A DNA stretch of 64,000 bases, taken from Isoetes taiwanensis (taxonomy: Eukaryota > Streptophyta > Lycopodiopsida > Isoetales > Isoetaceae). Shown piece by piece: positions 17,601 to 64,000 of this stretch. The notes beneath the pieces are model-generated. The model had not been told where the DNA came from. It saw only the letters and a list, made by a program, of their open reading frames with translations, and searched no databases. The stretch spans positions 18,164,746 through 18,228,745 of the forward strand of contig JAJEKV010000013.1 in NCBI GenBank assembly GCA_021234155.1, given 5' to 3'. The first letter of the stretch is position 1. Each line of letters begins with the position of its first letter. Both the position numbers and the translations under genes were made by a program.

Positions 17601-17855
17601 TTGTTTTTGAGTAAGGTTGTTTCTTATTTTCTATTTGTTTATGCTGCTACCTTTCAGAATGCAGATGTTTATTCTTTTGCTACTTCATTTGCAGGTCCTC
17701 TCGAAGTTGTGAATATGACAGATTGAATATTGGATCAAACTAGACAGATTACTTTTACCATCAGCAAAGCCCTTTCTGTGGCCATATTTCTATCTTTTGT
17801 ACCAGAAAGCATGTGTTGGTATTTTGAGTTCAAAAAATGTCCAACTTACTTTGTA
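14635..17855 (+). repeat. Duplicated unit, copy A, left part
   Basis: Homologous in order and orientation to 37,482-37,882, 43,472-44,747 and 50,281-51,204. Shared text starts at ATAGTTAAAGAAC and includes CTCATTATCATCTGG-type landmarks near 15,025 and GAAATGATGCACGATC near 15,781. Copy A lacks the 5.6-kb Helitron of copy B and so preserves its empty site (TATCTATA joined to TATAATAC near 15,050). It also lacks about 462 and 5,050 bases present in copy B at 44,748-45,209 and 45,230-50,280. Short frames such as MFPGADCLVTGTARD recur in both copies but belong to no family I recognise. Confidence 0.88.
15140..15721. other. 582-bp segment present only in copy A
   Basis: Copy B reads straight from GATCAG to TTATTATTTTG; copy A has 582 extra bases between them. 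The right end is GC-rich, with a frame reading KAPPKPYFGANVSLPEL. No terminal inverted repeat, clean target duplication, poly-A or Helitron end is visible, so insertion here and deletion in copy B are both possible. Confidence 0.7.
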
Positions 17856-17866
17856 CAAGAAATTTA

Positions 17867-21995: not shown

Positions 21996-22248
21996 CCGTC
22001 TTTCCTATATATATGATTAGTAGGAAAGAAAAGAAGTTTTCAGGCAAAAAAAAAATCCAAAAATCTTTTGGATGGTTCCTTTTGGCATTTATTTGGTAAG
22101 TTAATCCTTCTAGCTTCAAGTTAATCTCTTTCCTTGATTTCTTGTTTCTTGCTTAATTTCCATCATTTGCCTTTCTGTCATCTGCTCTGCTTTTTCTCCC
22201 CTTTCTTTCTCAGTTTCTCATTTTCACCTTTATCTTTTAATTGCATTA

Positions 22249-24498
22249 ATGGCTAAAATTCCTCAAAAAATTCAAATTTCTCCTTTAAACACCTCGGCTA
22301 CCCTAAACTTGCAATCTTTGGCTCTTCTTCATAACTATATGCTTCTTCCTGCTGATCAGAGATCCGAGCTCCTCACACAGTTAAGTTCTTTTAATTCTGA
22401 TCCCTCCAAAGTTTGGAAATTTGGAGATTTCTCTTACTTGGTTTACTCTGCCAAAGATATGCATCATTTCAGCACCTCTCCTCCTCAATGGGACAATCTT
22501 TCTAATGATCCTCCACTGGATGCCAATGGAGCTCCTTTACAAATGGTCCCGAGGCCTGCTGCTCCATTAATCTCTGATCAGGATCTTGCTGAAGAATTCG
22601 CCTTCCAGCAATCAAGGTCTCCAGTTAACACCCAACCATTCAGAGGTATTCAACTAAATTCCCCTCTGATTTCCTCCAGAATTGATTGTCTTTCAAAATG
22701 TGATGTTATCATCAAAGTCGATTCAGTGGGATTAAGGGTTGAAAAGCTTTGGGATCATTTGCTTAGGCTTCACAAAGGGATCATCATTAACTCTATCTAT
22801 TGGCTCAACTACCCTTATCTTCTAGCTGAATGTGGCTGTGAGAGAACCTCCAATTATTTTCTTAAGCTTGGCAAATCTACCTGTGACACCTATCAGCTTA
22901 CATTTCTTAAATGGTATCCCACCTTGCCTTTGAATGAATTCAGTAAATTTCATGTTGCCTCTGTTACCATGAGTGATCTCAATCCCATCTACTGGAATGT
23001 AGACTGCTTTTCAAAAATTTTCAACTCAATTGGCACATACTTGACAACTGAATTCTCACCTTACAGACCTCCAAAATGCTTTGCTCAAATTGATATATCC
23101 AAAACTGTCCCAACTTCTATAGCTATCACTGATTACTTTGGGAAACAAATTAACTTGCAGCTTAATTAGGTTGGTTTACCAAGTATTTGCCAAAAGTGTA
23201 ACCATAGACATAATCATCTTGAACAATGTGACAACGTGGTTGTTAACACAAGTGTGAAGGAGAACATCACCAATCAGACTGGTCTCCCTCAAGTCAAATC
23301 AATCTCAGGGAATCAGGAAAATAGGCAATCCACTCCTTGGAAAAGAATTAATGGGAGTCAGAAGAGAATCTCTAAGCAAAGAGAACTAAAAGCTAGGGAA
23401 GTTTCTCCCAAGGGTCTTGATGCTGCTCTACCTCAAAATTTCTCATATGCTCTTGACAGTCAGTCAAAGGTCAAGATTCTCAACAAAGGCATTCTTATAA
23501 AAGAAAATTCTGCAGCTCCACAAAATAACACAGGTGGTTCTGACACAAGCAAGAATTCCTTATATAATAGATCAGATTCTCTGAATTCTAGATTACTGAA
23601 AGAAAAGATGCCTTTGACTACAAAGAATTTTGATCTTCACGGTACTTTGAAGAATATTCTCAGCCATTCTAATTCAAAACGAGAAATATCAACAATTAAA
23701 ATATCGCCACTTTACGTAAATGGCAAGAAAAACTTTATTTCAAGATATTCTACAGGTACATCTTCAGATACAGATTATGAAGTTCCATTAATTATGGAAG
23801 GAAATACCAATATTTCTACTGATAAACAATGTAATTACACTATCAAGCTGGATAGCCAAATCAAAAACACAAGCTAGTATGGCAAAAGCAAATCTGACAA
23901 ATCTGGAATTTAAGTTTTGTCAATGTCTTCTGAGGAGGATCATGATATTATTTGCTCCAACAACTTCAGTGTTCTTGCAGACCTAAATGAAGACTACTTG
24001 GATGGTAATTTGGAATCAAACTTGGATCCAAATTTGTTCCCAAATAAGACTGTTCACCCCCCAGACCCTTCTCATATTATTTCCAAGAAAATTGATCTCC
24101 CCGAACCTTCAATTGCTCAATTACCTCAAGTTGACCTTATTGACCTCTCTCCCTCTTTTTCCACTGAACCAAATATCCTTCCTTGCCATAAACAGGATGA
24201 GATTATTTCCCCATACACTGAATCTTTGTTAAAAGAGTTAATTGTACCATCAGTTGGATATGAGGTTACAATCTCAACAGATCAGGCATATCAAACAAAA
24301 ATGGAAAATTTGAAAAGTTTTTTGGACAAAGAACCAGCAAAGGTTTCAGATTCAGCATGTGACAATCATATAAGCCAGGAGTTACTTATGGACACTTTCG
24401 AATATCTGAAAACAATCCTGCCTCAAGGAATTCTGAAGAAATTCAACATCAGAATATGCAGACTCAACTTTGTTCCAGGCAAGATCTTTCCTCTATAG
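22249..24498 (+). pseudogene. LINE ORF1 (RNA-binding nucleic-acid chaperone), in-frame stops
   Basis: One frame runs from ATG at 22,249 to 24,498 with stops at 23,167, 23,875 and 23,911. Residues 150-300 follow the plant LINE ORF1 pattern: a W-containing beta region (WYPTLPLNEF), NVDCFSKIFNSIGTYL, and FAQIDISKTVP. Just after the first stop comes ICQKCNHRHNHLEQC, a zinc-knuckle-like Cys/His cluster with slightly off spacing. The remainder is the low-complexity, Asn/Ser-rich linker usual after this domain. A shifted frame continues to 24,836. ORF1 protein would bind LINE RNA in the ribonucleoprotein. The stops show it is not made as one protein. Confidence 0.75.
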
Positions 24499-43471: not shown

Positions 43472-45590
43472 TATAATACTAAGATGATAGCTTGTGCAAT
43501 ATCTTGCTTGTTCATTTTATTGTGTGTGACAACTTTCATTGAGTCGTTAAATGATCAGTTATTATTTTGCCCCCTATTGAGTGGGAATATTTTCGTGAAA
43601 ATCTGAAAAGCATTCTGGAAATGATGCACGATCTTTACTATAGAATGTTTCCTGGTGCAGATTGTCTAGTTACCGGAACAGCCAGAGATAAGTTGATTTT
43701 GCTACTTTATGTCAAATGCGGCAGTTATTTTATGGCATTTGATTTCGTCCCTTTTTGGTTTGTTAGATGGAAAAAAGATCGGGTTTGTGCTTTCGGATGG
43801 ATATCCGAGTCCATGCATCTAGCTTTAGAAGTTAGCTATTGCTCCACTTGTTGTTATCCGTTGCTTTAGATTTCCATGGCATCTGCATATTGATTTATAC
43901 ATGAAACGGACCCTTTTTGGGAGATAAGTCGACATCTTCTAATTGGTTAGTGCCATGGTTGTTAACAGCTAAATGTTCAATCCACCCGCTTGAATTTGGG
44001 CCTTTACATATGTCGTCTGATCCTCTTCTTAAAATTATCGAAGCTTTATGTAATCTGGCTGGTGATGCTTATATGCTCATGAAACTGCTGGTCCTCAATG
44101 GCATTAACACAGAAGAATCTTGGCAGGTCCTTCTGATTCATGTACCTATAATCAAAGCAGTTGGTTCCTGAGCTCTTCCAGGTTCTAAACTTGATCATGT
44201 TTACTAAATTACTAAATTTCTGATACATAACTCATGGTTTGGCACTTTGCAACAATCATTTTCTTATCAGCAACAACCATTTGCATGTAAGATGTTGCAG
44301 ATTAAGATGTTGCCGTAGTCTTTGTGTTTCTATTATTTCTATTTGTACGATTTGTTTCCTTACTGATTCTCCTTTGGATTGGCGGATCCAATGCAGAGTG
44401 GATACATTGTGAGAACCCAGATTTTAGCTACAACATTCTTATGCATTTAAGAGCTCACTATAATTTTGGGCATAAGTATTTAGATCGGGTCTGTGCTTTT
44501 GGATGTATATCCCACTCCATGCATTTCTTCCTCACGAAACATTGTGACTGCATTATCTGGCGCCTGTTATCCATTATTGTAGGCGGTTGTGCAAAGGACA
44601 GTTGTGTATGCCTTTGCAATAGATGGCGAATGGTAATGGCTATGGGTAGATTCTGAACAGAGGTTGAGTCCTTTACTAGAGGTTGCATACTAGAGGTTGA
44701 GTTGCAACGGGTCTCCGTCAGCGAATTGGGAAACGAGCAAATATGAGGTATACTTTCTTCTTTCGCATAGATTACCAGATTTAGAACTTAGATATTTTAG
44801 GTCCTTCTTTATGGGCAGCACCAGATGGGCGATTTTATGATTGTATCTTTTGGGTATCAATCTTTCTTATTAAATATCTTTCAATATGTTGAATTCTTCA
44901 TCACATGTTTCATGTTCTGATTTCTGGTTTTTTCTTAAAAAATGGTTAGTGCCATCCCCTGCGAATCGTGATTCATATTCTAACTTAATATATCTTGGAG
45001 AAAGTTTTGGTTGTCAGGTTTGAATTCACGAGACTTAATTCAGCACATTATAGTGCATTAGTAATATGCTTCATAGCACTCCTGCTCAACATATTTGCTT
45101 CAACGAATGGGGATGAAAAGTTCATTAATAGAGTAATAAGCTTCAATCCTCTGAATCTCATCAAGAAAAAAAAGGAAAAAAAAAACCATAATCCATTCAG
45201 CTGCTTCCTACCTAATTTTAGTTGGTAATGCCATCGATGCGAGCCATCGGATCGAGATTCTTGAATGGACGAGCATGCACCTCTCCCATGCATGCATGTA
45301 TTTTCTAGAGCTCTGGTTCGTTTAGGGATCGCTATTTCTTGCAGGTTCTTCATCGACTTTCCATCGGCGTTTTCTCCTCTCTCAGCAGTTCCTATGACTC
45401 CCACCCATCCTCTCTTAACTTGTATATTATTGTAAATGTTGTTTTTTGTCGCGTGGCACGCATGACCAGCCCCTCGCTTTTTTGACGTCTAAATATTGTT
45501 TTTTCGCGTGGCACGCGTAACCAGCCGCTTGCTTTTCGAGGTTTTTTCTCTATTGGTTTTTCGGTTGGTGATGTTCAGGTCCAGGGGTGA
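43472..45590 (+). repeat. Duplicated unit, copy B, middle part
   Basis: 43,472-44,747 matches copy A 15,050-16,920 (without the 582-bp copy-A segment). 44,748-45,209 and 45,230-45,590 have no counterpart in copy A. A short shared block, CTAATTTTAGTTGGTAATG, at 45,210-45,229 corresponds to 16,917-16,933. The two copies therefore differ by large indels as well as transposon insertions. No gene is recognised. Confidence 0.7.
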
Positions 45591-45632
45591 CACTACAAGA
45601 GAATGATGGTTAAACGTCAGAATAATCGTCAG
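45591..45632 (+). repeat. CACTA left terminal inverted repeat
   Basis: CACTACAAGAGAATGATGGT continuing through TAAACGTCAGAATAATCGTC. It pairs with 49,680-49,721 apart from about five positions. Confidence 0.93.
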
Positions 45633-45900
45633 AGAGCCTTTATAAAATGGACAACCGCCTCAGCCCTTATTCCGATTCGAATATACCGACGAGTTTTAAT
45701 ATACCGACGAATAATAGTTTTATTTAGTGACATAGTCGATAATAGTCAGTTGAATAGTCAGAGAATTAGTCATTTAAATAGTCACAAAATTCGTCATTTT
45801 GTTAGTCAGATAGTTCGTCAGTTAATCATAATATTAGTCATCGTACTAGTCAATTTATTAGTCAATTCAATAGTTAGAATATTGGTCATTTTATTGAAAA
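45620..45900. repeat. CACTA subterminal repeats, left
   Basis: About fifteen occurrences of NTAGTCA or CGTCA spaced about 12-16 bases, in mostly one orientation (for example AATAGTCAGTTGAATAGTCA). Such arrays bind the element-encoded regulatory protein in En/Spm-type elements; the role here is inferred. Confidence 0.85.
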
Positions 45901-46431
45901 TATTGCCAATACATAAAAATTGGTATTTTTCGTACTGCAAATAAATGAAAGGAGCTCCAAGGAATCGAACCTTGGTTAAACCATTATCTCCAACAACAAC
46001 TGATGTGTATAAAAGAATCATTTTTTCAGTCTACAAAAAAATCAATTTTTCAATTGCTCAGAACTTTGCTAGAAAAGAGAATTAACAAGATCAAGCTTTA
46101 ACTAATTATGATTACCTTGTTGATCTCCAATATGCATATACTCATTTTCGCACGTAAGAGGATCTTGTTGTAATTTCTATATATGACAGAGAGAGATTAT
46201 TAGAGAAAGAATGTACCAAGTACACATTTTCACCAAATCAAGTTGCACAAATCGTAAGAATAACATAAAATAATTAAAGCATCCAACAAACCTATCGTCA
46301 CTGTGGCTCACTCTTTTCTGCATTCCAATCAACTGCCAGCCAGAATTTAGGGATGCTGCGTCCCTGTTTTGCAGAAAATGCCCGGCCTGAAAATAGTCAA
46401 ATAATTTCTTGTTAGATCTTATGAACCTGCA

Positions 46432-47400
46432 TTAAAGCGCAATATAATTTACTAATAAGATTACCCAATCTACAAGCATGTCGCTTTCTTCACTGAAGGC
46501 CAGCTTTCCTGTTAAGATCTCAAGCAAGAGAACACCAAAAGAGTAAACATCTCCTGCTCGACTATATACTCCTTTGTGGACAACATCTGGATCCACGTAG
46601 CCACCAGTTTTCCGCACTACTGCAAGCTCTGAACTCTTTACAACAGGGACTCTCCCCAAGCCTGTCATCTGCAGAAATAATATGATATAATAGGTTTCAC
46701 GATTAAACTCTCAATAATTAATTGTTCTCCATACCGTGTAAGTTTTCAAAAAGAGACCCGTTTGGCGCATACTGAAAAATGAGCATTCTGAAGGAAAAAA
46801 ACTTCCAGATGAGTATATAAAGTTAGCCATAAACACGACCCTCAAAAGTAGACTAGACATAAACATGCATGTGGGTCTTCTCGTCACAAAATCCTATCAA
46901 GCTACTCAAGTGTTGATGATGAACACATGACATAAGTTCAACCTGTATTAACATTACTAACAAGAATTTTGACTCAAATGCACCCTTAAGGACACCTACA
47001 TACCTGAAATCTGAAACTGGCATCCACGTCTGAACTTTCAGCAATGCCTTTCTTTATGCTTTTTGTGGCAACCTCAGTTCCATCTCCTAAAATTCCCTTG
47101 TATACAAGATTAGTCGTGCCTTCTCCTATCAAATTACTGAATCCCTCACTCACCACTTCAATTTCCTGATACGTGAAACGGAAAACATGACCTGCAAAGA
47201 AATTTGAAACTTGTAAGTGCTCCTCTACAGGGGTAAGGAACACATTTCAAGGACATTTACCTCTTATAAGCCCCTTTGTGAAGACGGGTTTTCTAGCCTT
47301 CTGATGTGTAACAGGAAGCTTCTGTTTGCAAAACCGCTTGCGCAAAATCATAATCAGCCGCCTTGTCTGCAGTATTAAGCGGCCTCTGCCGCTTTGCCTC
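46432..47400 (-). pseudogene. Captured receptor-like protein kinase fragment
   Basis: Three minus-strand pieces, in kinase order, fit exons with introns retained. First is a basic juxtamembrane-like stretch (RKRFCKQKLPVTHQKARKP, about 47,345-47,285). Then come subdomains I-II at 47,243-46,986, with FRFTYQEIE and IGEGTTNLVYKG, where the glycine loop lacks its third G, and VATKSIKKG. Subdomains III-V near 46,940-46,860 read HHQHLSSLIGFCDE. Subdomains VIII-IX at 46,668-46,432 read GGYVDPDVVHKGVYSRAGD then VYSFGVLLLEILTGK. The HRD and DFG catalytic segments are not seen, so it cannot be an active kinase. Introns retained means DNA-level capture, not retroposition. Plant RLK/Pelle family, subfamily not assigned. 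Confidence 0.82.
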
Positions 47401-47720
47401 TACATATAATTAAAAATGCCATATCCTAATCCTGTCTTTTGCTGCATTCAAAAATTTGATAGTGCATTTCATTAGATTACTATGTAAAACATGTTACCTT
47501 GTGATCATGCGCCATATCGGTTTGCTGCTCTGCCAGACTCTGCAGTCCCTCCAAACCGCTCCGCCAGACTCTGCCGTTCCGGAACGAAAACTTAATGGCA
47601 ATGAAAACCTAAATCGAAATAATGGAAAGGGATTAAAAAACGAAATAGAAAATACTGAGGGAAAAAAGAACGGAGTTGAATGGGTATTTTGCACAGAGAT
47701 GCCTTGGATGTGGATAATCT

Positions 47721-48083
47721 CTACAAGCTACCTGTTCTAAGACCCATGATCAGACAACAATTCTTGTGTGCTATTATAAAGAAATTGCAAAGAAATCGCA
47801 AACTTACAAATACTCGCTCTCCTGTCACAAACAGATCCATAGAATCATCTTTATGTAGCTCATCTGAGTTAATTTTACAGGGATCATCCTCTAATATATA
47901 GCAATCCAAATCGACATCAGTAGCTTCTAAGATTCGTTGTTTCTTGTTTCCAACTGCAATCTCTTCCGAGTACGACCGCTTACTGATGGTCTTTGGAGAC
48001 AAGCAAATTAAATCATCATCATCATCATCTTCACTTGAAGAACTAATCTCCCACACTTGGGGTTCTTGCGACACCATCTTCAA
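47721..48083 (-). pseudogene. Captured exon of an acidic, probably nuclear protein (RIN13-like?)
   Basis: The minus frame starts MVSQEPQVWEISSSSEDDDD. It continues with SPKTISKRSY, a basic KKQR and DVDLDCYILEDDPCKI before running into likely intron after VTGER. The acidic serine run followed by a DCxxLxxDP motif recalls the N-terminal part of plant RPM1-interacting protein 13-like sequences, but I hold that only weakly. Its start methionine is placed by the first ATG in frame. It lies inside the CACTA element upstream of the kinase fragment on the same strand and is probably a second captured gene. Confidence 0.5.
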
Positions 48084-48807
48084 TTCAAATCCTTACCATG
48101 CCAAGATCTTTTTCACGAGCGAATAGCGGCAAGCAAATTATGCACTTCTACCATGCTTTCCTGAACTACATTAGGTCACATAACTCAAAACCACGAGAGA
48201 ACCCTCACTCTAATAAAAACAACTAGCTCATCAGGATCAATGTAGAAACCCTAAACCTGATACTTTGGAATTCTTCCGCCATAACAAACACCTCAAAATT
48301 CTGGACCTATCTGCGCTTGACCGTCGGACCTATTCTGGACCTTCACCGTCCGACCTAAATTTGCCGCTTGCAATTCAAACAACCCTGTTCAGCAACGAAG
48401 CCAAGCGTCCCAACAAATTTCCCGATCGGCTGGGGTTTTTTAGCTGGGGTTGAAAAGCTTAGGTAAGATGTAGTCTCTGTATGGGATACCGGGCCGATTT
48501 GCGTAAAAGTTGCTAAGCTTATAGTTGGTTTTTAGCAGGTTGCCTAACCCGAGGTGACCGATTTGCTGCCATTCTAGATGCCACGTGTTATGCCATGTCA
48601 GCTTTTTTTTTTTTTATCTCAGCCGTTAAGATTTAATTTATGAATCGACGGCTAGAAAAAATAGAAAACCCAGGTAATTCTTTCGGCCACCAGAAAAGCT
48701 ATGGAACTTAGTTACCGCCATTTCTACCAACGACAGTCTTCATTTCTGCCATGGAAATTGCTTCCTGCTCTTTGCTTGATTCAATCTAGAAGCTCTTTGA
48801 TTGCATT

Positions 48808-48990
48808 TTGGTGCTCTTCCTAACCATTATTTTGTTTAAGTTATATTTTGGACGGGATTGGGCTAGTGTTTATGGGGTCATAGCTGGTTATGCCCTAAGT
48901 GGTTTGTGTGTGGCTGTTGGTGGAGGGGTCTATACAGAAGCAGCAGATTTAGTTGGAAAGGTCGAGAAAGCCTCATATTTCATCGTTGAG
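48808..48990 (+). pseudogene. Captured vacuolar H+-pyrophosphatase exon fragment
   Basis: The plus frame reads VLFLTIILFKLYFGRDWASV, then YGVIAGYALSG, then [19 protein letters not shown]. This follows the plant membrane H+-pyrophosphatase from a transmembrane helix into the conserved [20 protein letters not shown] region that lines the pyrophosphate site. The block before VGGG and the VGAD residues are deleted, and the conserved lysine of YTKAAD is glutamate. The orientation is opposite to the two other captured genes. The intact enzyme pumps protons into the vacuole using pyrophosphate; this fragment cannot. Confidence 0.78.
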
Positions 48991-49289
48991 TATGATAGGA
49001 AGTTTTGGATATGTTTGGAGCATGTGCTTGTAATTTCAAAAAATTGCATGTGAGAGGAGAAACAAATTGTAGTAAACAACACCTAAACAAACACAAAATT
49101 TACTACCAACTCCTATTTCTCCATTGCAATGGAGTTGGTGAAACATGATCTCCTCAAATTACAAAACATTTGGACTCGATTAAATAGAGATGTTATTTGA
49201 TAAATCAGAAAGTCTAGATGCTTAATATATCACTTACATCGTTATATTAATAAAGAAACTAGGGAATAGCAACAACTACAATAGATATT

Positions 49290-49690
49290 ATGCATGACCA
49301 TTATTCTGACGAATATGGAAAGATAGTCAGCATAATAGTCACAAAAGTAATCAGTGTAATCGTCCACTTGTAAGTCATCTAATTAGTCAGATATTTAGTC
49401 AAACATTTGGACAGACAGATAGTCAGGTTATTAGTCAGACTCTTAGTCAGAAAAATCGTCAGAATTGATTCGTCCGACTATTCGTCAGCTCATTAGTCAG
49501 ATTATTAGACAACTAATTAGTCAAGCTAAACGTTAGTTTAATGGTCAGGTAATTCGTCAGATGCTTATTAGTCAGTTTATTAGTCATATTTTTCGTCAGA
49601 TCCAAACGTCAGTTTGTTAGTCAGATAAAAGCGTCATATTTATAGTCAAATACGCATTTGACAAACTATTTTAGACCCTTTGACGATTTT
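49290..49690. repeat. CACTA subterminal repeats, right
   Basis: More than twenty TAGTCA/CGTCAG words at about 12-16-base spacing (for example TTAGTCAGACTCTTAGTCAG). The array is longer than on the left side. Confidence 0.87.
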
Positions 49691-49721
49691 TCTGACGTTT
49701 AGCTGTCATTCTCTTGTAGTG
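49680..49721 (-). repeat. CACTA right terminal inverted repeat
   Basis: Reverse complement begins CACTACAAGAGAATGACAGC and continues through TAAACGTCAG. Followed by TGA at 49,722-49,724. Confidence 0.93.
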
Positions 49722-52218
49722 TGATGCGCGAATTCGGTATTCTCTATGGAGCGTGGGTTTTTTTTGTGGGAACGTTTAGCAGCCTTGCGTTGTCTAAGTC
49801 CCTTGCAGAGATTTTATCACTAGGGTTTTTTCTCGAAAACACGAAAGGGCGAGGCTTTTTAATCCTGGCAATAAGCTCTTGGCAGGTACACTAGCTGACA
49901 TCAGTAGCACACAATTTTATTTGGGGTCCAGGTGTTATAACTGGATATTCCCTATGTTTTTCATTTTTTGGGTAGCCTGCGATGTGCAGCTACCCACTCT
50001 ATACCATTGTAGAAAAACTGCTGAGATGAATGAAAAGCTTAGCTATTTCTCCTCTCTTAGCAGTTCCCTTGTCTCTCTGTTTTTGATACCAGGCAGGGGA
50101 GGGGCTTCTTCCTGCTTGGTTTGCCAGTTTGACGTCTTTTTCTATATTGTGACATGTTCTTCCCCAATCTTGTACCTTCTTTGGCCATCCTTCAACCTTC
50201 GACCTCGATCCCGTTTTGATAATGAAGTTCTCTTTTTGTCGGGAGCTTTTGTCTGTTTTCATGCGAGCCCTTATTCAAGAATGTTGTTTCATCAATGACG
50301 TAGGCAATAGTCTTTATTAAACACCTGGCAAGTTTGGTGTCTGCATGCGCATCGGAAATGTAATTTGTCTTGACGACACTAGAAAGTCAAAGTCATTACA
50401 CATGCTTGTTATTTCCTAACAATGCAATGGAGGCTTTAGTAGGATAACATATATCATTAAAAACAATAAATGTAACCCCTCATATCCACCATGCAAACAG
50501 CCAAATTGCAGAGTTTTAGGTTAAATTAACAGCAGAAGCAGCTGATCTAAGCATATAACTTTAGACAAGATATAGTTTCTTGGTCAATTCTCAAATGTTG
50601 AAACCAAATGGTAGGCTAATGCACGTCTTTGGCATAGCCATATGCCCATCTTGCATGCATCTTCCAGCACATTTCCCAGCACCTTGCAACATATTTGAAG
50701 AAAGAAGACGCAAATATGTACAAAAATGATTGTTGGCTCATGAATTGAAGAAAGAAGAAGCAAATATATACAAGAGTGATTGGTGGCTCATGCGTTTTTT
50801 TGCGTTAAAACATTTTTCCAGTCTTGGTCAGTATAGTTATTATGGATCTGTGGTGTTGGAAACTGATAAATGATTTTCACTCGGAGCTCAGAGCAAAAAA
50901 GAGTAGGTATGCTGGAGCCATGTATGCAACCATTTCACTTTGTTTTTATGTAAGGTTGTTTCTTATTTTCTATTTCTTTATGCTGCTAACTTTTAGAATG
51001 CAGATGTTCATTCTTTTGCTACTATGTTTGCAGATCCTCTAGAAGTTGTGAACATGACAGATTGAATATTGGATCGAACTGGACAGATTATTTTTACCAC
51101 CAGCAAAGCCCTTTCTGTGGCCATATTTCTTTTTTATTTACCATAAAGCATGTGTTGGTATTTTGAGTTCAAAAAATGTCCATCTTACTTTGTATAATTC
51201 TTTTATTGAAGGGTGTTACTTCTTTTATTGGCCTTGGAGCATTTCTACTCCAACGTGGTGTTTTCAACTTTTGCAAAGTTGCTCTCTCTTTTATAACGAT
51301 GATTGTGGAGCATCGTTATTAACGAATGACATGTGACACGCCACTACTCTTAGATGACTAGATATGCCATATATGTTGCTGACATGGCTCTTCTATAAAG
51401 CCAGTCATGCTTTATAGTTCTTTATCCAATTTATTCATAGCCTAGCTATATCAATCTCTTCCATTCTAGCATATATGCATACAAGATTTCTTCATGGTAT
51501 CAGAGCTAGAATGCAGGATGAAATGGGTGTAGGAGATAGGATCAAAACATGGTATCGGGTCTGATCAGAGGAATTGACATCATTTTTCTTGCATTGTGCA
51601 AGAATCAGTCTAGAACAGGTCTAGAATGTGTTGCGTGTCTAGAACTGGTCTAGAATGAAAGCTCGAGAAATCTTTGCAGAGATTCCTCTAATCTTGCAAG
51701 ATTCTTCGTCTGGTTAGGTTGGGGTTGTGTTTGTGGTTTGATTGATTTGTTCGAATCCGAAGATTGGTGAAGATCTGATGATTGGTGATCTGTTGGATCG
51801 TGAGATTTGGGTATATTGCAGCCTCAACTTTTTTTATTCTTCCCTTTCTTAACTTGCCCAGACTCTCCGCAACTAGTATCAGCCCACGGACCTCCTAACT
51901 TTTCCATTCCCAGCCTCAACCATCGAATTTGAGCTCAGTTGCACCACACACCTCGGCTATTTCTAGACATCACAACAGCAAATTGTCCTGGGACTTGGAC
52001 GTGTATTTTCATTGCAAGTCGGCATCATTCCAGTTCTTTTCGGTCAAATATAGTTTTTCATGCTAAAGTCTGTATAAGCGTTTCTATTGATGTAGGGCTT
52101 CGTGAGGATGTTAGGCTTTCGTGGTATAGATCCAGGTTCAACTTTGCTGTGGGGCAGTTTTAGTTTCCATTTGAATCATCTACATATTTTTCTTGCTATT
52201 TTTAGTTCTGATTGAATG
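49722..52218 (+). repeat. Duplicated unit, copy B, last part
   Basis: 49,722-50,280 is specific to copy B; a short minus frame here (about 50,000-50,262) is unrecognised. 50,281-51,204 matches copy A 16,934-17,855, and 51,205-52,218 matches 20,935-21,995. The join at 51,204, TTTGTATAATTC, is the empty site for the Helitron-like element of copy A. Confidence 0.85.
51240..51506 (+). mobile_element. Ty1/copia LTR end with primer-binding site (copy B)
   Basis: TGGTATCAGAGC at 51,495-51,506 follows a segment ending TTCA, and TTCTATAAAGCC sits about 110 bases upstream. Same arrangement as copy A at 21,237. The leader continues to about 52,218 with no gag. Confidence 0.65.
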
Positions 52219-53430: not shown

Positions 53431-54103
53431 TGTGAGTTTTAAGGCCTGCTTAACTAAGAGAAATTCACTAAGTTTATACTTGAGTTATTATTGTATGAGA
53501 CTAGAAGAACTTCCTTAACCAATATTCGATATCCAATGGTGAAATTATCTCCTTAGTTAAAGCCAAATTTTCTGAGTTCTATTCACGATCTCTGCCTAGT
53601 TACAAGTCTGTATATACCCTTCGATAGCCCAAGCAGCTACAGCAATCACAATTCGGCCGTCTTCCACAACCTGCCTTCCAATCCAAGTGTTATTTTCATC
53701 TGTGGTTTTTCTGTTAATGTCACCGAGCTGCCGACTCCGGGTTTTCTGATATATCTATTCCGGAATCATTTAATCTCACTTCGCCACCTGGTATAACCAT
53801 AGGTCTTTTTAACCATTATACACAATGTCCATTTTATAGCTTCATTAGCCCAATATGTTCAAGGTCTGCAAAGCTTCCTCATCTCATATACTGTTATACA
53901 ACTTATACAACTCGAACCCTAGAGTCAACCTTGAAATACTGTAGCATTAGAATCAGTGTTGAAATACTGAACTGCATTAGCTGCATCATCTTCATATCCT
54001 CAATTACATGCAATGTTGCTGCATCATCTTCATATGCTCAACTACATGCAATATTTAATTACCTTAACATTCAACCTGCTCATTACAAATATGTAACATG
54101 ACA
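53431..54103 (-). mobile_element. Inner copia element 1, 3' LTR (673 bp)
   Basis: Minus-strand LTR running TGTCATGTTACATATTTG to TTAAAACTCACA. On the minus strand it is preceded by the polypurine tract AAGGGGGAGTGAAAGGAA. It matches 58,442-59,115 with about eleven differences by eye (about 98% identity). Confidence 0.92.
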
Positions 54104-57100
54104 TTCCTTTCACTCCCCCTTCATGTTACTATATTTACAATTTAGTTTCTCCTTCATATAGCTAAACCTCCTGTCTGACAACGGTTTGGTGAGGATGTCT
54201 GCAACCTGATCAGCCGTATTGACATATTGCAGTTTTATAAAGTTTCTGCTCACAACATCTCTAATAAAATGCATTTCTAATTCCACATGCTTGGTTCTTT
54301 CATGTAAAGTTGGATTCTTAGTCATTGAGATGCAGCTCATACTATCACATTTCAGAATTATTGGATCACTTTGCCTCATCCCACATTCTGGAAGCAACCT
54401 CCTGCTCCATATTATTTCCTTAACAGCTAACGTAGTGGCGGCATATTCTGCCTCAGCAGAAGACATGTCAATTGACTTTTGTTTTCTACATTTCCAAGAT
54501 ACTGGAGCACCTCCAAGCATCAGCACAAAACCTGGCGTAGATTTCCTCTCGTCCAAATCACCTCCTCAGTCGGCATCACAATAAGCATTCAAGTTTAAAT
54601 CTTCTGAATCAAATACTAAACCATGATCACTCGTACCCTTAAGATACCTGAGTATTCGATTGGCTGCAATCCAGTGACCTCTGCCAGGATTTGTATTGTA
54701 TCTGCTGAGTATATTAACAGAGAAAGCTATATCAGGCCTTGTACTGTTAGCAAGGTACAACACGCAACCAATTAATTTCCGATACGGTACTCCTTCCATT
54801 TCTTGTTTTTCTTCAACTGTACTAGGACATAACATATTTGAGATCTTATTTCCTGCTATCATTGGTGTCTTTACTGCCTTACAGTCAACCATATTAAATC
54901 GTTTGAGCATGCCTTCAATATTCTGCCTTTGTGACAAGATCAGCACTTTGTTCTCTGTATCTCTTGTCATTTCTATCCCTAGAAATTTCTTTAACAGTCC
55001 AAGATCTGTCATTTTGAATCTGTCTTGAAGTATTGATTTACACTTATTCAGGATGTCATTGCTGCTCGCTATCATAATGTTGTCGTCTACGTACAATGCT
55101 ATGTAACAGTACTGCTCTTCTAGTTTGAATAAATAGATGTTTCCATCGTCCTTCAATTTTATAAATCCTTGTTCTTTCAAATAAGAATCTATGCAGAGAT
55201 ACCACTGTCTAGGTGACTGTCTCAAACCATATACTGCTCTTCACAATTTCCAAACCATGTCTTTCCCTCGAACCCAGGAGCCTGTTTCATGTATATTTCT
55301 TCTTCTAGTTTTGCATTTAAGAAGGCAGTACTTACATCCATATGATGAATTTCTAAATCTTTTGCATTTGCCATAGCCAATAGCATTCTGATACTAGTTA
55401 GTTTAACCAGAGGCGAAAATGTATCTTCATAGTCTATACCATATTTTTGTGTAAAACCCTGTGCTACTAACCTGGCCTTAAATTTGGGCTTATCTCCATC
55501 AGCTCCTTGCTTGATTTTAAATATCCATTTACATCCAACAACATTTTTATTTTCTGATTTCTTAACTAGTTCATAGGTTCCATTTCTTCCTTCATGGCCA
55601 TTTTCCAAGCTTCCGAATTAGGACTGTTCAAGGCATCATCAATATTCTGTGGTACATCGACATCCATTGTTGCTAAAATCTCTACTAGATCCATTTCTGA
55701 AACATCTATATGTTGCTGCTGCTGTAACCTTCTACTTTTACCGCTTGAACTTCTACCAAACAAGTCAACATTTACCTTTGATTCATCTTGAAGAATTTGT
55801 GCTTGACTTCTTCTTGTACGTACAGCTTTCTCAACTAGAGCATGATCGTCTTCTCCCCTTTTGACTGCCCTTCACATCTCTCCATGTTATCTCCTTCTAA
55901 GACTGTTGGTTGCTCCTCAAACTCGTCTGCAGCAATCACATCATGGATTTTCTCATCTGTGACACCATTTTTTTCTAGTTCATCTACTTCACTATCTTCG
56001 TCCAATATTGCAGCTGGAATTTCAACCCCTTCCTTTTTAAAACAAGAATCATCTTGCTTGTTGATAGATACCGGTTGTTGTACTTCTCTCTTGTACAACT
56101 GTTTTTCGTCAAACAATACATCTCTACTTATTATTATCCGTCTTCTTGCAGGGTCATACAACCTGTATGCTTTTGCATTGTCATCGTATCCAACCAGGTA
56201 AGTGATCCATGATCTATTATCCAGTTTCAATCTCTTTTCTTCAGGTACATGAGTAAATGTCAAGCAACCATAAACTTTAAGTCTATTATAATACGGTTTC
56301 TTTCCCGACCATAACATTTCAGGAATTGCTCCATTTATACTAGCCGAGGGCAGCATATTCTGAACTTTAACAACAGTATTAACCGCTTCCTCCCACAAAA
56401 AATTCGGCAATCCTGTATGTTTTAACATGGATCTTACTGCGTTAAGAATCGTTCTATTCTTTCGTTCCGCCACTCCATTTTGTTGTGGCGTACCACTGCA
56501 AGTCAACTGTCTTTTGATTCCATGATCGAGGCAATACTGTTTGAATGCTCCTGACAGATATTCGCCACCTCTATCAGATCTGATACACTTAATTTTTCTG
56601 CCAGTTTCAAGCTCAACTTCCTTAGAAAAATATTTAAAAGCCTCAAAGGCTTGATCCTTTGTTCTTAAGCAGTAAACTTTGGTCTTTCTACTGAAATCAT
56701 CTATGAAAGTGATAAAATATCTCTTGCCCGTTAAGCTTCTAATGTTTAATGGACCACAAAGGTCAGTGTGTATCAGATTTAGTACTCCATTTGCTCTTTT
56801 GAATGATCTCTTGAACGGCAGCCTTGTTTGTTTTCCCAACATACACCCAATGCATGTAGAATTTTTAGATTTTGTTTGACAAGCATCAATCAATTTTTGC
56901 TTTGCCATTAGCTCGACATTTTTCATATTTGTGTGGCACAACCTCTCATGCCATATAGTCAAGTCAGCAACTGTCACAGCATTAATAAGTGGCAAAACAT
57001 TATTGTTTAATCCAAAAAGATTCCCGACTCGTTTTCCAATAAATTTAACTTCATTATTCATCAAAACAGTACATTGAAGGTTGTCAAATACAACTTTGTA

Positions 57101-57202
57101 ACCCAAATCTACCAACTGACTGACCGATATCAAATTTCTAACAAGGCTAGGTACGCAAAGTACATCTCTTAATTTTAAAGCCTTTCCTTCTAAATCAAAC
57201 AA
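54104..57202 (-). pseudogene. Inner copia element 1 pol (integrase, RT, RNase H), broken
   Basis: Minus strand, order as in Ty1/copia. 57,202-55,835 carries the pre-integrase region (LWHERLCHTNMKN-type zinc residues) and integrase with HTDLCGP, SDRGGEYLSG and QQNGVAERKNRT, the D-D-E set. 55,763-54,566 carries RT with MDVSTAFLNAKLEEE and YVDDNIMIA. 54,556-54,110 carries RNase H with the ADILTKPL end. Breaks relative to element 2: a 1-base loss near 55,866, a 19-base deletion near 55,587, a 4-base deletion near 55,276 and a TGG to TGA stop near 54,570. It would copy and integrate the element's DNA if intact. Confidence 0.93.
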
Positions 57203-58427
57203 CTCTAATATTCATGTGTCTCTAACTGCTTGCAAGTCTCCATTTCCAAGTTTAACAAATCCTCCATTTCTTCCAGTGCATTCCTTCAGCAAGTTGCCTG
57301 ACTTAATCACTATCTTTTCTGCTCCACTATCTAGGATAAACATGTCATTATTATCAGTATCTCCATTTCCAATGGACAAAAGACTAAATTTACTTACCTC
57401 TGCATTTTCATCTTCCTCAACCAGCCCACCTTCAATTTCCTCAGTTAAGTTTACTGCTGTATTTTTGGCTGCCCCTCCTTGACTATAACCTTGTCTTCCT
57501 CGACCTCTTCCTCGGCCTCTCCCTGCACCTGCTGCTCTTCCTCTTCCAGCCTGTTTTGGACTAGAACACCTGCTTGCAAAGTGACCCCTCCCTCCACAAT
57601 TAAGGCACTCGTTATCTTTAAGTTTCGGACAATCGATCTTCAAGTGCCCTTGCATATTGCAATGAAAACATCTCCTGTCGTCCGACTGATATTTAAAGGT
57701 TCCCCCTCTAAACTTACCTTTGCTAGCATACATAATTTCCACATTTCTTGCATCTTCATCTTCAAATGCTTTCTTTTGTTCAAATTCCGTTCTAATCATT
57801 TCTTCTGCTGTCTCCCGTGTCTTTGCTACATTCCTAATTAATGTAGCTAATTGCTCATTATTGCCAACTGCCCTTGCAATGTAAAAACTTTCTCTTTGCT
57901 CAGAAGAAACACTCGAAACCCTCGAAATCAGCAACAACATTATCAAACTTAGAGAAAAAAGCTGTTAAATCATCATGTTCTCTGACCCTGAGCTTCCTCA
58001 GCTCTTTATCCAAAACATCAATTTGAGAAGAGGTTTTTTCCTCATAATGTTTAAGTATTTCCAAATCTCCTTTGGAGACTTACCTCTGACTTTCAAGAGA
58101 ATCGAAGATCCGACTTTGCTTGCCAGAATTGCATATGCTTCTCTAATCTTGGATTTATCCTCACTTTTCAAGCTCACACTTACACCACTAGTTGCAGTGG
58201 TATCAATTCCTCCCCAGCAAGGAGCCTTCTCCCCGCGTAGCACCCCTCCTTTGATGTATCTGTATCACCACTGTCCTCTTCACTTACCAATTCCCAAAGG
58301 TTCTCGTTCTCCAGTACATTTTTAATTTGTTCCTTCCAAATTTGAAACCCCGGTCCTCCTTGATACTCCTTCACATTGCTCAACAGTGAAGCTCCCAATC
58401 TGCTTGCCATTCTGAGATTGCAATACT
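57203..58427 (-). pseudogene. Inner copia element 1 gag and protease, broken
   Basis: The minus strand encodes a capsid start (MASRLGASLLSNVKEYQGGP at 58,410), a middle part at 58,243-57,998 in a shifted frame (SILLKVRGKSPKEIWKYL), and 57,946-57,212 with two CCHC zinc knuckles, CFHCNMQGHLKIDC and CLNCGGRGHFASRC. Between the knuckles and the protease lies a Gly/Arg-rich stretch. The protease has FILDSGAEK; the catalytic DSG is intact. A TGA separates it from pol near 57,205. Gag would form the particle shell and package RNA, and the protease would cleave the polyprotein. At least two frameshifts make it non-functional. Confidence 0.88.
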
Positions 58428-58441: not shown

Positions 58442-59115
58442 TGTGCGTTTTAAGGCCTGCTTAACTAAGAGAAATTCACTAAGTTTATACTTGAGTTATT
58501 ATTGTATGAGACTAGAAGAACTTCCTTAACCAATATTCGATATCCAATGGTGAAATTATCTCCTTAGTTAAAGCCAAATTTTCTGAGTTCTATTCACGAT
58601 CTCTGCCTAGTTACAAGTCTGTATATACCCTTCGATAGCCCAAGCAGCTACAGCAATCACAATTCGGCCGTCTTCCACAACCTGCCTTCCGATCCAAGTG
58701 TAATTTTCATCTGTGGTTTTTTCTGTTAATGTCACCGAGCTGCCGACTCCGGATTTTTTGATATATCTATTCTGGAATCATTTAATCTCACTTCGCCACC
58801 TGGTATAACCATAGGTCTTTTTAACCATTATACACAATGTCCATTTTATAGCTTCATTAGCCCAATATGTTCAAGGTCTGCAAAGCTTCCTCATCTCATA
58901 TACCGTTATACAACTTATACAACTCGAACCCTAGAGTCAATCTTGAAATACTGTAGCATTAGAATCATTGTTGAAATACTGAACTGCATTAGCTGCATCA
59001 TCTTCATATCCTCAATTACATGCAATATTGCTGCATCATCTTCATATGCTCAACTACATGCAATATTTAATTACCTTAACATTCAACCTGCTCATTACAA
59101 ATATGTAACATGACA
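58442..59115 (-). mobile_element. Shared LTR between inner copia elements 1 and 2 (674 bp)
   Basis: Serves as the 5' LTR of element 1 (PBS on its left) and as the 3' LTR of element 2 (polypurine tract on its right). One LTR for two internal regions is the product expected from recombination between two copies. Confidence 0.9.
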
Positions 59116-60729
59116 TTCCTTTCACTCCCCCTTCATGTTACTATATTTACAATTTAGTTTCTCCTTCAGATAGCTAAACCTCCTGTCTGACAACGGTTTG
59201 GTGAGGATGTCTGCAACCTGATCAGTCGTATTGACATATTGCAGTTTTATAAAGTTTCTGCTCACAACATCTCTAATAAAATGCATTTCTAATTCCACAT
59301 GCTTGGTTCTTTCATGTAAAGTTGGATTCTTAGTCATTGAGATGCAGCTCATACTATCACATTTCAGAATTATTGGATCACTTTGCCTCATCCCACATTC
59401 TGGAAGCAACCTCCTGCTCCATATTATTTCCTTAGCAGCTAACGTAGTGGCGGCATATTCTGCCTCAGCAGAAGACATGGCAATTGACTTTTGTTTTCTA
59501 CATTTCCAAGATACTGGAGCACCTCCAAGCATCAGCACAAAACCTGACGTAGATTTCCCCTCGTCCAAATCACCTCCCCAGTCGGCATCACAATAAGCAT
59601 TCAAATTTAAATCTTCTGAATCAAATACTAAACCATGATCACTCGTACCCTTAAGATACCTGAGTATTCGATTGGCTGCAATCCAGTGACCTCTGCCAGG
59701 ATTTGTATTGTATCTGCCGAGTATATTAACAGAGAAAGCTATATCAGGCCTTGTACAGTTAGCAAGGTACAACAAGCAACCAATTAATTCCCGATACGGT
59801 ACTCCTTCCATTTCTTGTTTTTCTTCAACTGTACTAGGACATAACATATTTGAGATCTTATTTCCTGCTATCATTGGTGTCTTTACTGCCTTACAGTCAA
59901 CCATATTAAATCGTTTGAGCATGCCTTCAATATTCTGCCTTTGTGACAAGATCAGCACTTTGTTCTCTCTATCTCTTGTCATTTCTATCCCTAGAAATTT
60001 CTTTAACAGTCCAAGATCTGTCATTTTGAATCTGTCTTGAAGTATTGATTTACACTTATTTAGGATGTCATTGCTGCTCGCTATCATAATGTTGTCGTCT
60101 ACGTACAATGCTATGTAACAGTACTGCTCTTCTAGTTTGAATAAATAGATGTTTCCATCGTCCTTCAATTTTATAAATCCTTGTTCTTTCAAATAAGAAT
60201 CTATGCAGAGATACCACTGTCTAGGTGACTGTCTCAAACCATATACTGCTCTTCTCAATTTCCAAACCATGGCTTTCCCTTGTTCGAACCCATGAGCCTG
60301 TTTCATGTATATTTCTTCTTCTAATTTTGCATTTAAGAAGGCAGTACTTACATCCATATGATGAATTTCTAAATCTTTTGCATTTGCCATAGCCAATAGC
60401 ATTCTGATACTAGTTAGTTTAACCAGAGGCGAAAATGTATCTTCATAGTCTATACCATATTTTTGTGTAAAACCCTGTGCTACTAACCTGGCCTTAAATT
60501 TGGGCTTATCTCCATCAGCTCCTTGCTTGATTTTAAATATCCATTTACATCCAACAACATTTTTATTTTCTGGTTTCTTAACTAGTTCATAGGTTCCTGT
60601 TCTGTGGAAAGAATCCATTTCTTCCTTCATGGCCATTTTCCAAGCTTCCGAATTAGGACTGTTCAAGGCATCATCAATATTCTGTGGTACATCGACATCC
60701 ATTGTTGCTAAAATCTCTACTAGATCCAT
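59116..60729 (-). CDS. Inner copia element 2 reverse transcriptase-RNase H, open frame of 535 codons
   Basis: An uninterrupted minus-strand frame from MDLVEILATMDVDV to a stop at 59,122. Motifs: GCKWIFKIKQ and ARLVAQGFTQKYGIDYEDTF at the RT start (residues 65-110); MDVSTAFLNAKLEEEIYMKQ; YVDDNIMIA, the catalytic loop (about residue 225); TRPDIAFSVNILGRYNTNPG; then RNase H with YCDADWGGD, MSSAEAEYAA and DILTKPLSDRR. It is the best preserved enzyme in the window and shows the parent reading frame of element 1. It is cut off from its integrase by a 4-base deletion near 60,768, and its first Met is internal to the original polyprotein, so it is not a natural start. Confidence 0.92.
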
Positions 60730-60740
60730 TTCTGAAACAT

Positions 60741-62282
60741 CTATATGTTGTTGCTGCTGTAACCTTCTACTTCGCTTGAACTTCTACCAAACAAGTCAAC
60801 ATTTACCTTTGATTCATCTTGAAGAATTTGTGCTTGACTTCTTCTTGTATGTACAGCTTTCTCAACTAGAGCATGATCGTCTTCTCCCCTTTTGACTGCC
60901 TCTTCACATCTCTCCATGTTATCTCCTTCTAAGGCTGTTGGTTGCTCCTCAAACTCGTCTGCAGCAATCACATCATGGATTTTCTCATCTGTGACACCAT
61001 TTTTTTCTAGTTCATCTACTTCACTATCTTCGTCCAATATTGCAGCTGGAATTTCAACCCCTTCCTTTTTAAAACAAGAATCATCTTGCTTGTTGATAGA
61101 TACCGGTTGTTGTACTTCTCTCTTGTACAACTGTTTTTCGTCAAACAATACATCTCTAATTATTATCCATTTTCTTGCAGGGTCATACAACCTGTATGCT
61201 TTTGCATTGTCATCGTATCCAACCAGGTAAGTGATCCATGATCTATTGTCCAGTTTCAATCTCTTTTCTTCAGGTACATGAGTAAATGTCAAGCAACCAT
61301 AAACTTTAAGTCTATTATAATCCGGTTTCTTTCCCGACCATAACATTTCAGGAATTGCTTTATTTATACTAGCCGAGGGCAGCATATTCTGAACTTTAAC
61401 AGCAGTATTAACCGCTTCCTCCCACAAAAACTTCGGCAATCCTGTATGTTTTAACATGGATCTTACTGCGTTAAGAATCGTTCTATTCTTTCGTTCCGCC
61501 ACTCCATTTTGTTGTGGCGTACCACTGCAAGTCAACTGTCTTTTGATTCCATGATCGAGGCAATACTGTTTGAATGCTCCTGACAGATATTCGCCACCTC
61601 TATCAGATCTGATACACTTAATTTTTCTGTCAGTTTCAAGCTCAACTTCTTTAGAAAAATATTTAAAAGCCTCAAAGGCTTGATCCTTTGTTCTTAAGCA
61701 GTAAACTTTGGTCTTTCTACTGAAATCATCTATGAAAGTGATAAAATATCTCTTGCCCGTTAAGCTTCTAATGTTTAATGGACCACAAAAGTCGATTATT
61801 GTATCAGATTTAGTACTCCATTTGCTCTTTTGAATGATCTCTTGAATGGCAGCCTTGTTTGTTTTCCCAACATACACTCAATGCATGTAGAATTTTCAGA
61901 TTTTGTTTGACAAGCATCAATCAATTTTTGCTTTGCCATTAGCTCGACATTTTTCATATTTGTGTGGCACAACCTCTCATGCCATATAGTCAAGTCAGCA
62001 ACTGTCACAACATTAATAAGTGGCAAAACATTACTGTTTAATCCAAAAAGATTCCCGACTCGTTTTCCAATAAATTTAACTTCATTATTCATCAAAACAG
62101 TACATTGAAGGTTGTCAAATACAACTTTGTAATCCAAATCTACCAACTGACTGACCGATATCAAATTTCTAATAAGGCTAGGTACGCAAAGTACATCTCT
62201 TAAATTTAAAGCCTTTCCTTCTAAATCAAACAACTCTAATATTCCAAGTCTCTAACTGCTTGCAAGTCTCTAACTGCTTGCA
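60741..62282 (-). pseudogene. Inner copia element 2 integrase and pre-integrase, 5'-truncated
   Basis: 61,877-60,741 covers integrase from just after the first catalytic region to the long acidic linker, with SDRGGEYLSG and QQNGVAERKNRT intact. 62,233-61,796 covers the pre-integrase domain. The frames break at the first catalytic motif: instead of HTDLCGP the sequence reads IIDFCGP with a shift (about 61,790). Element 2 stops at about 62,282, where AGTCTCTAACTGCTTGCA occurs twice in tandem. Protease, gag, PBS and 5' LTR are missing, so it is a truncated passenger joined to element 1 through their shared LTR. Confidence 0.9.
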
Positions 62283-64000
62283 GCCATCATTTGTTGTAAA
62301 GTTGGACCAGTTATTAAGCTCAAGCTTAGAGGGCTAAGCCCTAGTGAAATGTGGTCATACATGGTGAAAAATTATGAAGCTAAAACGTCATCCCAGATAG
62401 ATGTTTTAGAGAAGCAGTTGAGAAAGTTGAAGCTGCATGACAAAGATAATATAACCGAATTCCTTGAAAAGTTTGATTCCATTGTAGCTGACTTAGAAGG
62501 AGCAGGGGTTATATTGAATGAGCAATATCAATTGCTGGCTATTTCCAGGGTTGTTTCTCACAATGCATACTTGGCAACTCTGCTAAGAAATATTGCCAGA
62601 ACTAAGGAACATGCCATACAAATGATAAGAATAGAATTTGAACAGAGGCAGATTGGCCAAGATGAAGATGAGCAAGCCACTAAAGTTCTTTTTGCAGGGA
62701 AACATAAAGAAAAGAGAGGTTTTAACAAGGCTGGCAGGGACAAAGTAGGACCTTGTTATAACTGCAATGCATATGGTCATTTAAAGGCTGAATGTCCAAA
62801 AGCAGGGAAGGAAATCATATGCTACAATTGTGATGGTAAAGGACACTTTGCTTCAAGCTGTCCTAGCCCGAGGGGTCAGAATTCTAAAGGGAAAAGCAGG
62901 GGCAGAGGTAGCAGGACATTTGTACAAAAGGGAAAAGGAAGTTCCAAAGATAATCCAACATTAAATCTAACTCAAGAGACTCGAAGTGAGGAGGACGAGC
63001 AAAATGAAGATGATGAGGTAAGTTATGCTAAATTATGCCATTTAATGCATGATAATGATCACAATATGATAATTATAGATTCAGGAGCTGAGAGGACAGT
63101 GACATCATCTTCAAAATTGCTTAAGGATTGCAAGGAAGTGAAAAAGGGGCATGTGCAACTAGGAAATGGAGAATTGCAAGAAATCAAAGACACAGGAATG
63201 CTCGAGCTTTATGATCTTGAAGGAAAAGCTGTCAAGTTAGAAAATGTGCTTTGTGTGCCAGGTTTAGTTAGAAACCTGATTTCAGTGTGTCAGTTAGTTG
63301 ATCTTGGGTATAAAGTTCTCTTTGAGAGATTGAAATGTAAAGTGTTCTTCAATAATAAATTAAAGTTTGTTGGAAAAAGAGTTGGCAACTTGTTTGGATT
63401 AGATTTAAATCACTATGTTCCAAGTGTTAATCTTGTGACATGCACAAGTACTAAAACATGGCACGAGAGAATGTGTCATGTAAATTCTAAAACAGTTCAA
63501 CTCATGATCAAGAAAGGACTGATTAAAGGCACTACTGAAGATAATGTGAAGCTTAAATGTGTTGGATGTATTTTGGGAAAACACAGTAAACTTCCTTTCA
63601 AGAAATCAGAAAAAAGGGCAAGAAATAAACTGGACTTGATACACACAGATTTGTGTGGGCCATTGAATGTAACCAGCATTTCTGGAAAAAGGTATTTTAT
63701 GACCTTTATTGATGATTATAGTAGAATGACCAGAGTTTACTGCCTAAGAACAAAGGACCTAGCTTTGGAAGCATTCAAGTTCAAACAGTACTGCTATACA
63801 CATGGCATCAAGAGACAATTGACATGTAGGTTTTCACCTCAGCAAAATGGAATTGCTGAAAGGAAAAATAGGACCATACTCAATGCAGTGAGAAGCATGC
63901 TCAAATACTCTGGTTTGCCAAACTTCCTTTGGGAAGAGGCTGTTAAGACAGCAGTATATGTACAAAATCAGTTGCCATCCATAAGCATTAAAGGAGAAAT
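62283..64000 (+). pseudogene. Outer copia gag-pol, open to the window edge, integrase internally deleted
   Basis: A single plus-strand frame (for example ATG at 62,349, but open upstream to the junction) runs off the right edge. Gag: EFLEKFDSIVADLEGAG and LLRNIARTKEHAIQMI, then two CCHC knuckles, CYNCNAYGHLKAEC and CYNCDGKGHFASSC. Protease: IIIDSGAERTV. Pre-integrase: WHERMCHVNS and CVGCILGKH. Integrase: HTDLCGP and FIDDYSR present, then RTKDLALEAFKFKQYC, where about 30 residues found in the inner elements (including SDRGGEY, the second catalytic Asp) are missing in frame near 63,779. QQNGIAERKNRT follows. It is related to but clearly distinct from the inner elements. Without that Asp the integrase cannot be active. 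Confidence 0.9.

Follow-up and report, generated by a model that had tools for sequence, protein, structure and literature searches.

Structure of the element and its ends

The window, by which we mean the whole 64-kb stretch of DNA analysed here, contains a CACTA element of 4,131 bp at positions 45591-49721, flanked on each side by the trinucleotide TGA. The two copies of this target-site duplication, identical in sequence, lie at 45588-45590 and 49722-49724. The sequence CACTACAAGAGAATGA begins at 45591, and its exact inverse closes the element at 49721. The terminal inverted repeats occupy 45591-45631 on the plus strand and 49681-49721 on the minus strand; their first 16 bases are identical and 37 of their 41 positions match overall, whereas the best match among 200,000 random pairs of 41 bases drawn from the window reaches only 29 positions. 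When we search the 64 kb for the 16-base end, allowing up to three mismatches, we recover two sites only, both of them exact and both of them the termini of the element. A pair of loose matches would in itself be unremarkable, since 27 of 100 shuffles contain at least two. A target-site duplication of 3 bp is usual for the CACTA superfamily, and inspection of the flanks reveals no duplication of 5 nt at the edges of the element.

Near each terminus is a subterminal array of the motif [AC]GTCA, with 12 motifs in the left array (45615-45864, plus strand) and 20 in the right array (49325-49648, plus strand), mostly in steps of 12 bp. Of the intervals between consecutive motifs, 9 of 11 on the left and 15 of 19 on the right are multiples of 12 bp, and at each end the observed periodicity was reached by none of 20,000 random placements. 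Aligning the copies within the arrays yields the approximate consensus ATT[A/C]GTCAGAT. Taken together, the element's ends carry 32 motifs on the plus strand and three on the minus strand (3 of 35). None of the three is at the left end; at the right end one lies at 49307 and the other two fall within the terminal repeat. The left array recurs on the right as a direct, not an inverted, copy, and because both arrays lie on the plus strand the left and right ends of the element can be distinguished from one another. The ratio of observed to expected CpG, computed here on short stretches, is 1.67 and 1.05 in the arrays and 0.32-0.53 in the gene pieces described below, compared with 0.55 in the window.

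Inverted repeats that start with CACTA, a 3-bp duplication of the target site (TGA on both sides), and subterminal arrays of a short motif with a 12-bp period are the features by which we assign the element to the CACTA superfamily. A preliminary description of this DNA, made from the sequence alone, had placed a complete Pack-CACTA element at 45588-49724, and its ends, target site, arrays, and captured pieces are all recovered almost to the base. Both the 3-bp TGA duplication and the dense TAGTCA/CGTCAG subterminal arrays that it reported are found. The inverted termini it described are likewise real, but the length of 42 bp assigned to them is not, as the good match extends over 41 bp.

Gene pieces in the interior

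A receptor-like kinase piece lies on the minus strand, and consists of six exon segments in succession with phase-matched introns. In the order of transcription these are E0 (47261-47366), which is juxtamembrane-like; EA (47004-47191), the start of the kinase domain; EB (46869-46942); EB2 (46735-46787); EC (46465-46668); and ED (46360-46386), within which the similarity stops. For segment E0 the support comes from splice sites, frame, and phase, and similarity adds hardly anything, because the match to the nearest relative starts only at residue 29 of the translation. If exon length and phase are kept, the donor site of EB is GC instead of GT. Joined together, the segments from E0 to EB2 form one frame that is open throughout.

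The nearest kinase relative among the candidates scored is P0008, a protein of 329 residues from the clubmoss Diphasiastrum complanatum (E 1.4e-74). The search covered 146 candidates, three of which matched at E up to 1e-20, and its limit on protein length kept long receptor kinases out of the candidate set. Residues 29-136 of the E0-EB2 translation match residues 21-128 of P0008 (67% over 108 positions), and EC-ED matches residues 180-256 (73% over 77 positions). The intervening 51 residues of P0008 (129-179) are missing between EB2 and EC, and a tblastn search of the whole window with P0008 finds no match to its residues 132-178. We take the missing stretch to hold the catalytic loop, HGDLRSRNV. 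Moreover, the phases do not agree across the gap (1 at the end of EB2, 0 at the start of EC), so that splicing the one to the other shifts the frame and encounters a stop. As it stands, the captured piece is predicted to be unable to make a working kinase. In Pfam, a join of the exons assembled by hand matches Pkinase with E 9.4e-17; the frame of EC alone scores 33.3 bits for the kinase domain, above the cut-off of 31.7, and the frame with EA only falls far under the cut-off (E 0.11).

The minus strand also carries the beginning of a conserved small plant protein, labelled PF27679, a family that we take to be RPM1-interacting-protein-13-like (RIN13-like). Exon 1 (47808-48077) keeps its start codon and joins in frame to exon 2 (47672-47731), which contains the conserved VACRDYPHPRHLCAKYPF block and is truncated by the capture boundary. 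Seven of 14 candidates in the protein search match, all of them labelled PF27679, with a best E of 1.3e-9; they come from Taxus and Amborella (the best matches), Rumex, Amaranthus, Daucus, and two other sources. The family assignment is that of the match labels, as the Pfam library fails to identify the family in the homologues P0001 and P0006.

The third piece, on the plus strand, is a 165-bp exon piece of a vacuolar H+-pyrophosphatase (48805-48969). Its 55 residues match residues 202-264 of a vacuolar proton pump in the PDB (6afy and relatives; E 1.6e-10), in an alignment that contains two in-frame gaps of four residues each. The 6afy pump is presumably that of mung bean, of type I. The corresponding Pfam match, to H_PPase (E 8.4e-5), scores 21.8 bits, short of the curated threshold of 29.7.

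The sequence at 48530-48800, situated between the RIN13-like piece and that of the pyrophosphatase, contains CCACGTG and is promoter-like by eye. Two frames within it yield nothing in Pfam, transposase or gene, that exceeds a cut-off, and the stretch may have been captured as well.

In all, the donor pieces total about 1,578 bp, which is some 48% of the 3,299 bp that separate the arrays (45951-49249). The unassigned remainder comprises the stretches 45950-46360, 47370-47670, 48080-48800, and 48970-49250. Over the same 3,299 bp the [AC]GTCA motif occurs three times on the plus strand and once on the minus strand. With so few motifs, and no third copy of the 16-base end, remnants of CACTA ends were not found in the interior. 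Nor does a Pfam scan of the open reading frames of at least 60 aa that overlap the element detect a transposase family in 16 of the 17, the one left out of the scan being the single frame that straddles the right end; 12 shorter frames of the 91 listed are equally without a match to a transposase family. Rfam returns no matches in the window.

These results agree with the earlier proposal that the element lacks a transposase, as far as the 16 of 17 frames are concerned, and that it carries pieces of three unrelated donors in both orientations, the kinase and RIN13-like pieces pointing one way and the pyrophosphatase piece the other, each with homologues of its own. The minus-strand receptor-like kinase fragment with introns is upheld by homologues and exon phases, with the correction that the catalytic-loop stretch is missing, and the plus-strand vacuolar H+-pyrophosphatase fragment by its homologues. 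What had been called an acidic protein exon on the minus strand is confirmed by homologues as well, but it is not single: a second exon, at 47731-47672, had been overlooked.

Genomic setting and origin of the element

The CACTA element sits among nested repeats. The segments at 43555-44740 and 50280-51197 show about 92% agreement with 15718-16910 and 16930-17858, and represent two copies of one repeat. Compared with the copy at 15718-17858, the copy around the element is longer by two stretches, 44741-45209 and 45231-50279. The second of these has AATG at both of its edges and includes the CACTA element.

Several other features occur elsewhere in the window. Two copies of a stretch with retroelement domains, at 53431-57240 and 58442-62270, have the same orientation and are 97.6% alike; the best protein relatives of this stretch include Ty1/copia-type proteins, and a more distant relative lies inverted at 62952-63778. 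For a Copia-type frame of the window, the best identity is 48% among the 120 listed of 4,175 matches. A tandem array with a unit of 457 bp (3.6 copies, 89% matches) occupies 802-2420. An open frame of 354 residues at 12373-13434 includes a SWIM zinc finger (E 7.1e-5), which we take to be as in MULE/FAR1-type transposases, and another of 343 residues at 22138-23166 has a weak match, under the cut-off, to DUF4283 (E 3.6e-5), presumably as in plant LINE-type retroelements.

Two simple sources for the gene pieces can be set aside. A single local gene, whose contiguous parts might have been mistaken for captured pieces, is ruled out because the pieces belong to three unrelated families and lie on both strands, within one matched pair of ends. 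Capture from processed mRNA is ruled out by the introns, which are kept and have matching phases; the pieces are therefore of genomic DNA origin.

With host gene pieces (kinase, RIN13-like, pyrophosphatase) inside and no transposase of its own recognised, the element is in our view a non-autonomous CACTA (En/Spm-type) transposon of the Pack-CACTA kind, in which at least three gene pieces have been assembled from genomic DNA. We assign this reading a probability of roughly 93%. It is important, nevertheless, to consider how else the same structure could have arisen. One alternative is a composite, in which host DNA or other transposons were inserted separately, at later times, into a CACTA element of the ordinary deleted type, so that the gene pieces never moved together. 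Two observations speak for it, the many nested repeats of the neighbourhood and the share of the interior, about half, that is unassigned. We regard such a history as very improbable, because the gene pieces are partial exons with introns rather than whole elements, and because the interior inverted repeats are short, the longest arms besides the ends being 24 nt and lying between motifs of the right array.

A different question is whether the same element acts as a new gene, transcribed from the RIN13-like start and encoding a chimeric protein maintained by selection. The preserved start codon and the in-frame junction of exons 1 and 2 would permit this, and the frame, continued past exon 2, totals 122 residues; however, it stops 12 residues beyond the capture boundary and the kinase frame is broken, and we consider a selected new gene extremely unlikely. 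We also think it very unlikely, if slightly less so, that the host is a non-seed, clubmoss-like vascular plant in which CACTA elements capture from several donors as they do in flowering plants and in which, in addition, transcription from the RIN13-like start yields a short chimeric protein. Most likely the Pack-CACTA element is a passive carrier of coding fragments; it might lend additional exons to a host transcript, or give rise to small RNAs against the donor genes.

In CACTA biology, a transposase and an array-binding partner use the ends and the subterminal arrays for cut-and-paste transposition. The ends and 12-bp arrays described here would thus be signals for such proteins supplied from elsewhere, and cut-and-paste movement would probably need the help of an autonomous CACTA element. 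That the element has been mobile is suggested by the target-site duplication and the ends of this one copy. Capture would have taken place at the level of DNA, and the gene pieces may have been incomplete at capture or may have decayed afterwards. One candidate is tandem insertion followed by aberrant excision, a proposed route of Pack-CACTA capture (PMC13317346, PMC8903248). Such a route might leave remnants of ends behind; since none were found in the interior, it is not favoured over others.

Comparison with known CACTA elements

The element offers a clean case, resolved to the base, of gene capture from genomic DNA, in which exon phases are kept and the catalytic-loop stretch has been lost. 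Among the pieces, only the nearest relative of the kinase suggests a lycophyte host; the best matches of the RIN13-like piece, Taxus and Amborella, disagree with it as pointers to the host. Were the host a lycophyte, Pack-CACTA capture would extend beyond the seed plants; a search of an open-access library gave no paper on CACTA gene capture in lycophytes. For general biology the element is one more instance rather than a new principle. Multi-donor gene capture with retained introns by CACTA elements is already published for Tgm-Express1 and Pack-CACTA.

Tgm-Express1, a CACTA element of soybean, is 5.7 kb long, holds exon and intron fragments from five genes, and is spliced into chimeric transcripts (PMC1947982). 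As in that case, the present element belongs to the CACTA superfamily, measures several kb, and combines exon and intron pieces of several unrelated host genes. It is shorter, at 4.1 kb against 5.7 kb, and has at least three donors against five. A host gene carries Tgm-Express1 within its intron 2, and the chimeric transcripts are demonstrated, whereas no host gene is recognised around the present element. With respect to the Pack-CACTA elements of Arabidopsis, maize, and rice, a 5-nt target duplication is given for the CACTA elements of rice and maize (PMC8903248), compared with 3 bp here.

The 12-bp unit of the arrays has a precedent in the CACTA class. In the Jozin CACTA-like elements of Chenopodium a 12-bp subterminal motif, which is TATTTGCGTCAC in two species, occurs in 19-23 copies, and captured gene fragments are reported in the CACTA-like elements of the same study (PMC8978399). 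The Jozin motif TATTTGCGTCAC and the array motif of the present element share the core CGTCA. The Jozin elements differ in having coding regions and in ends that start with CACTAGT (PMC8978399), whereas the ends of the present element start with CACTACAAG.
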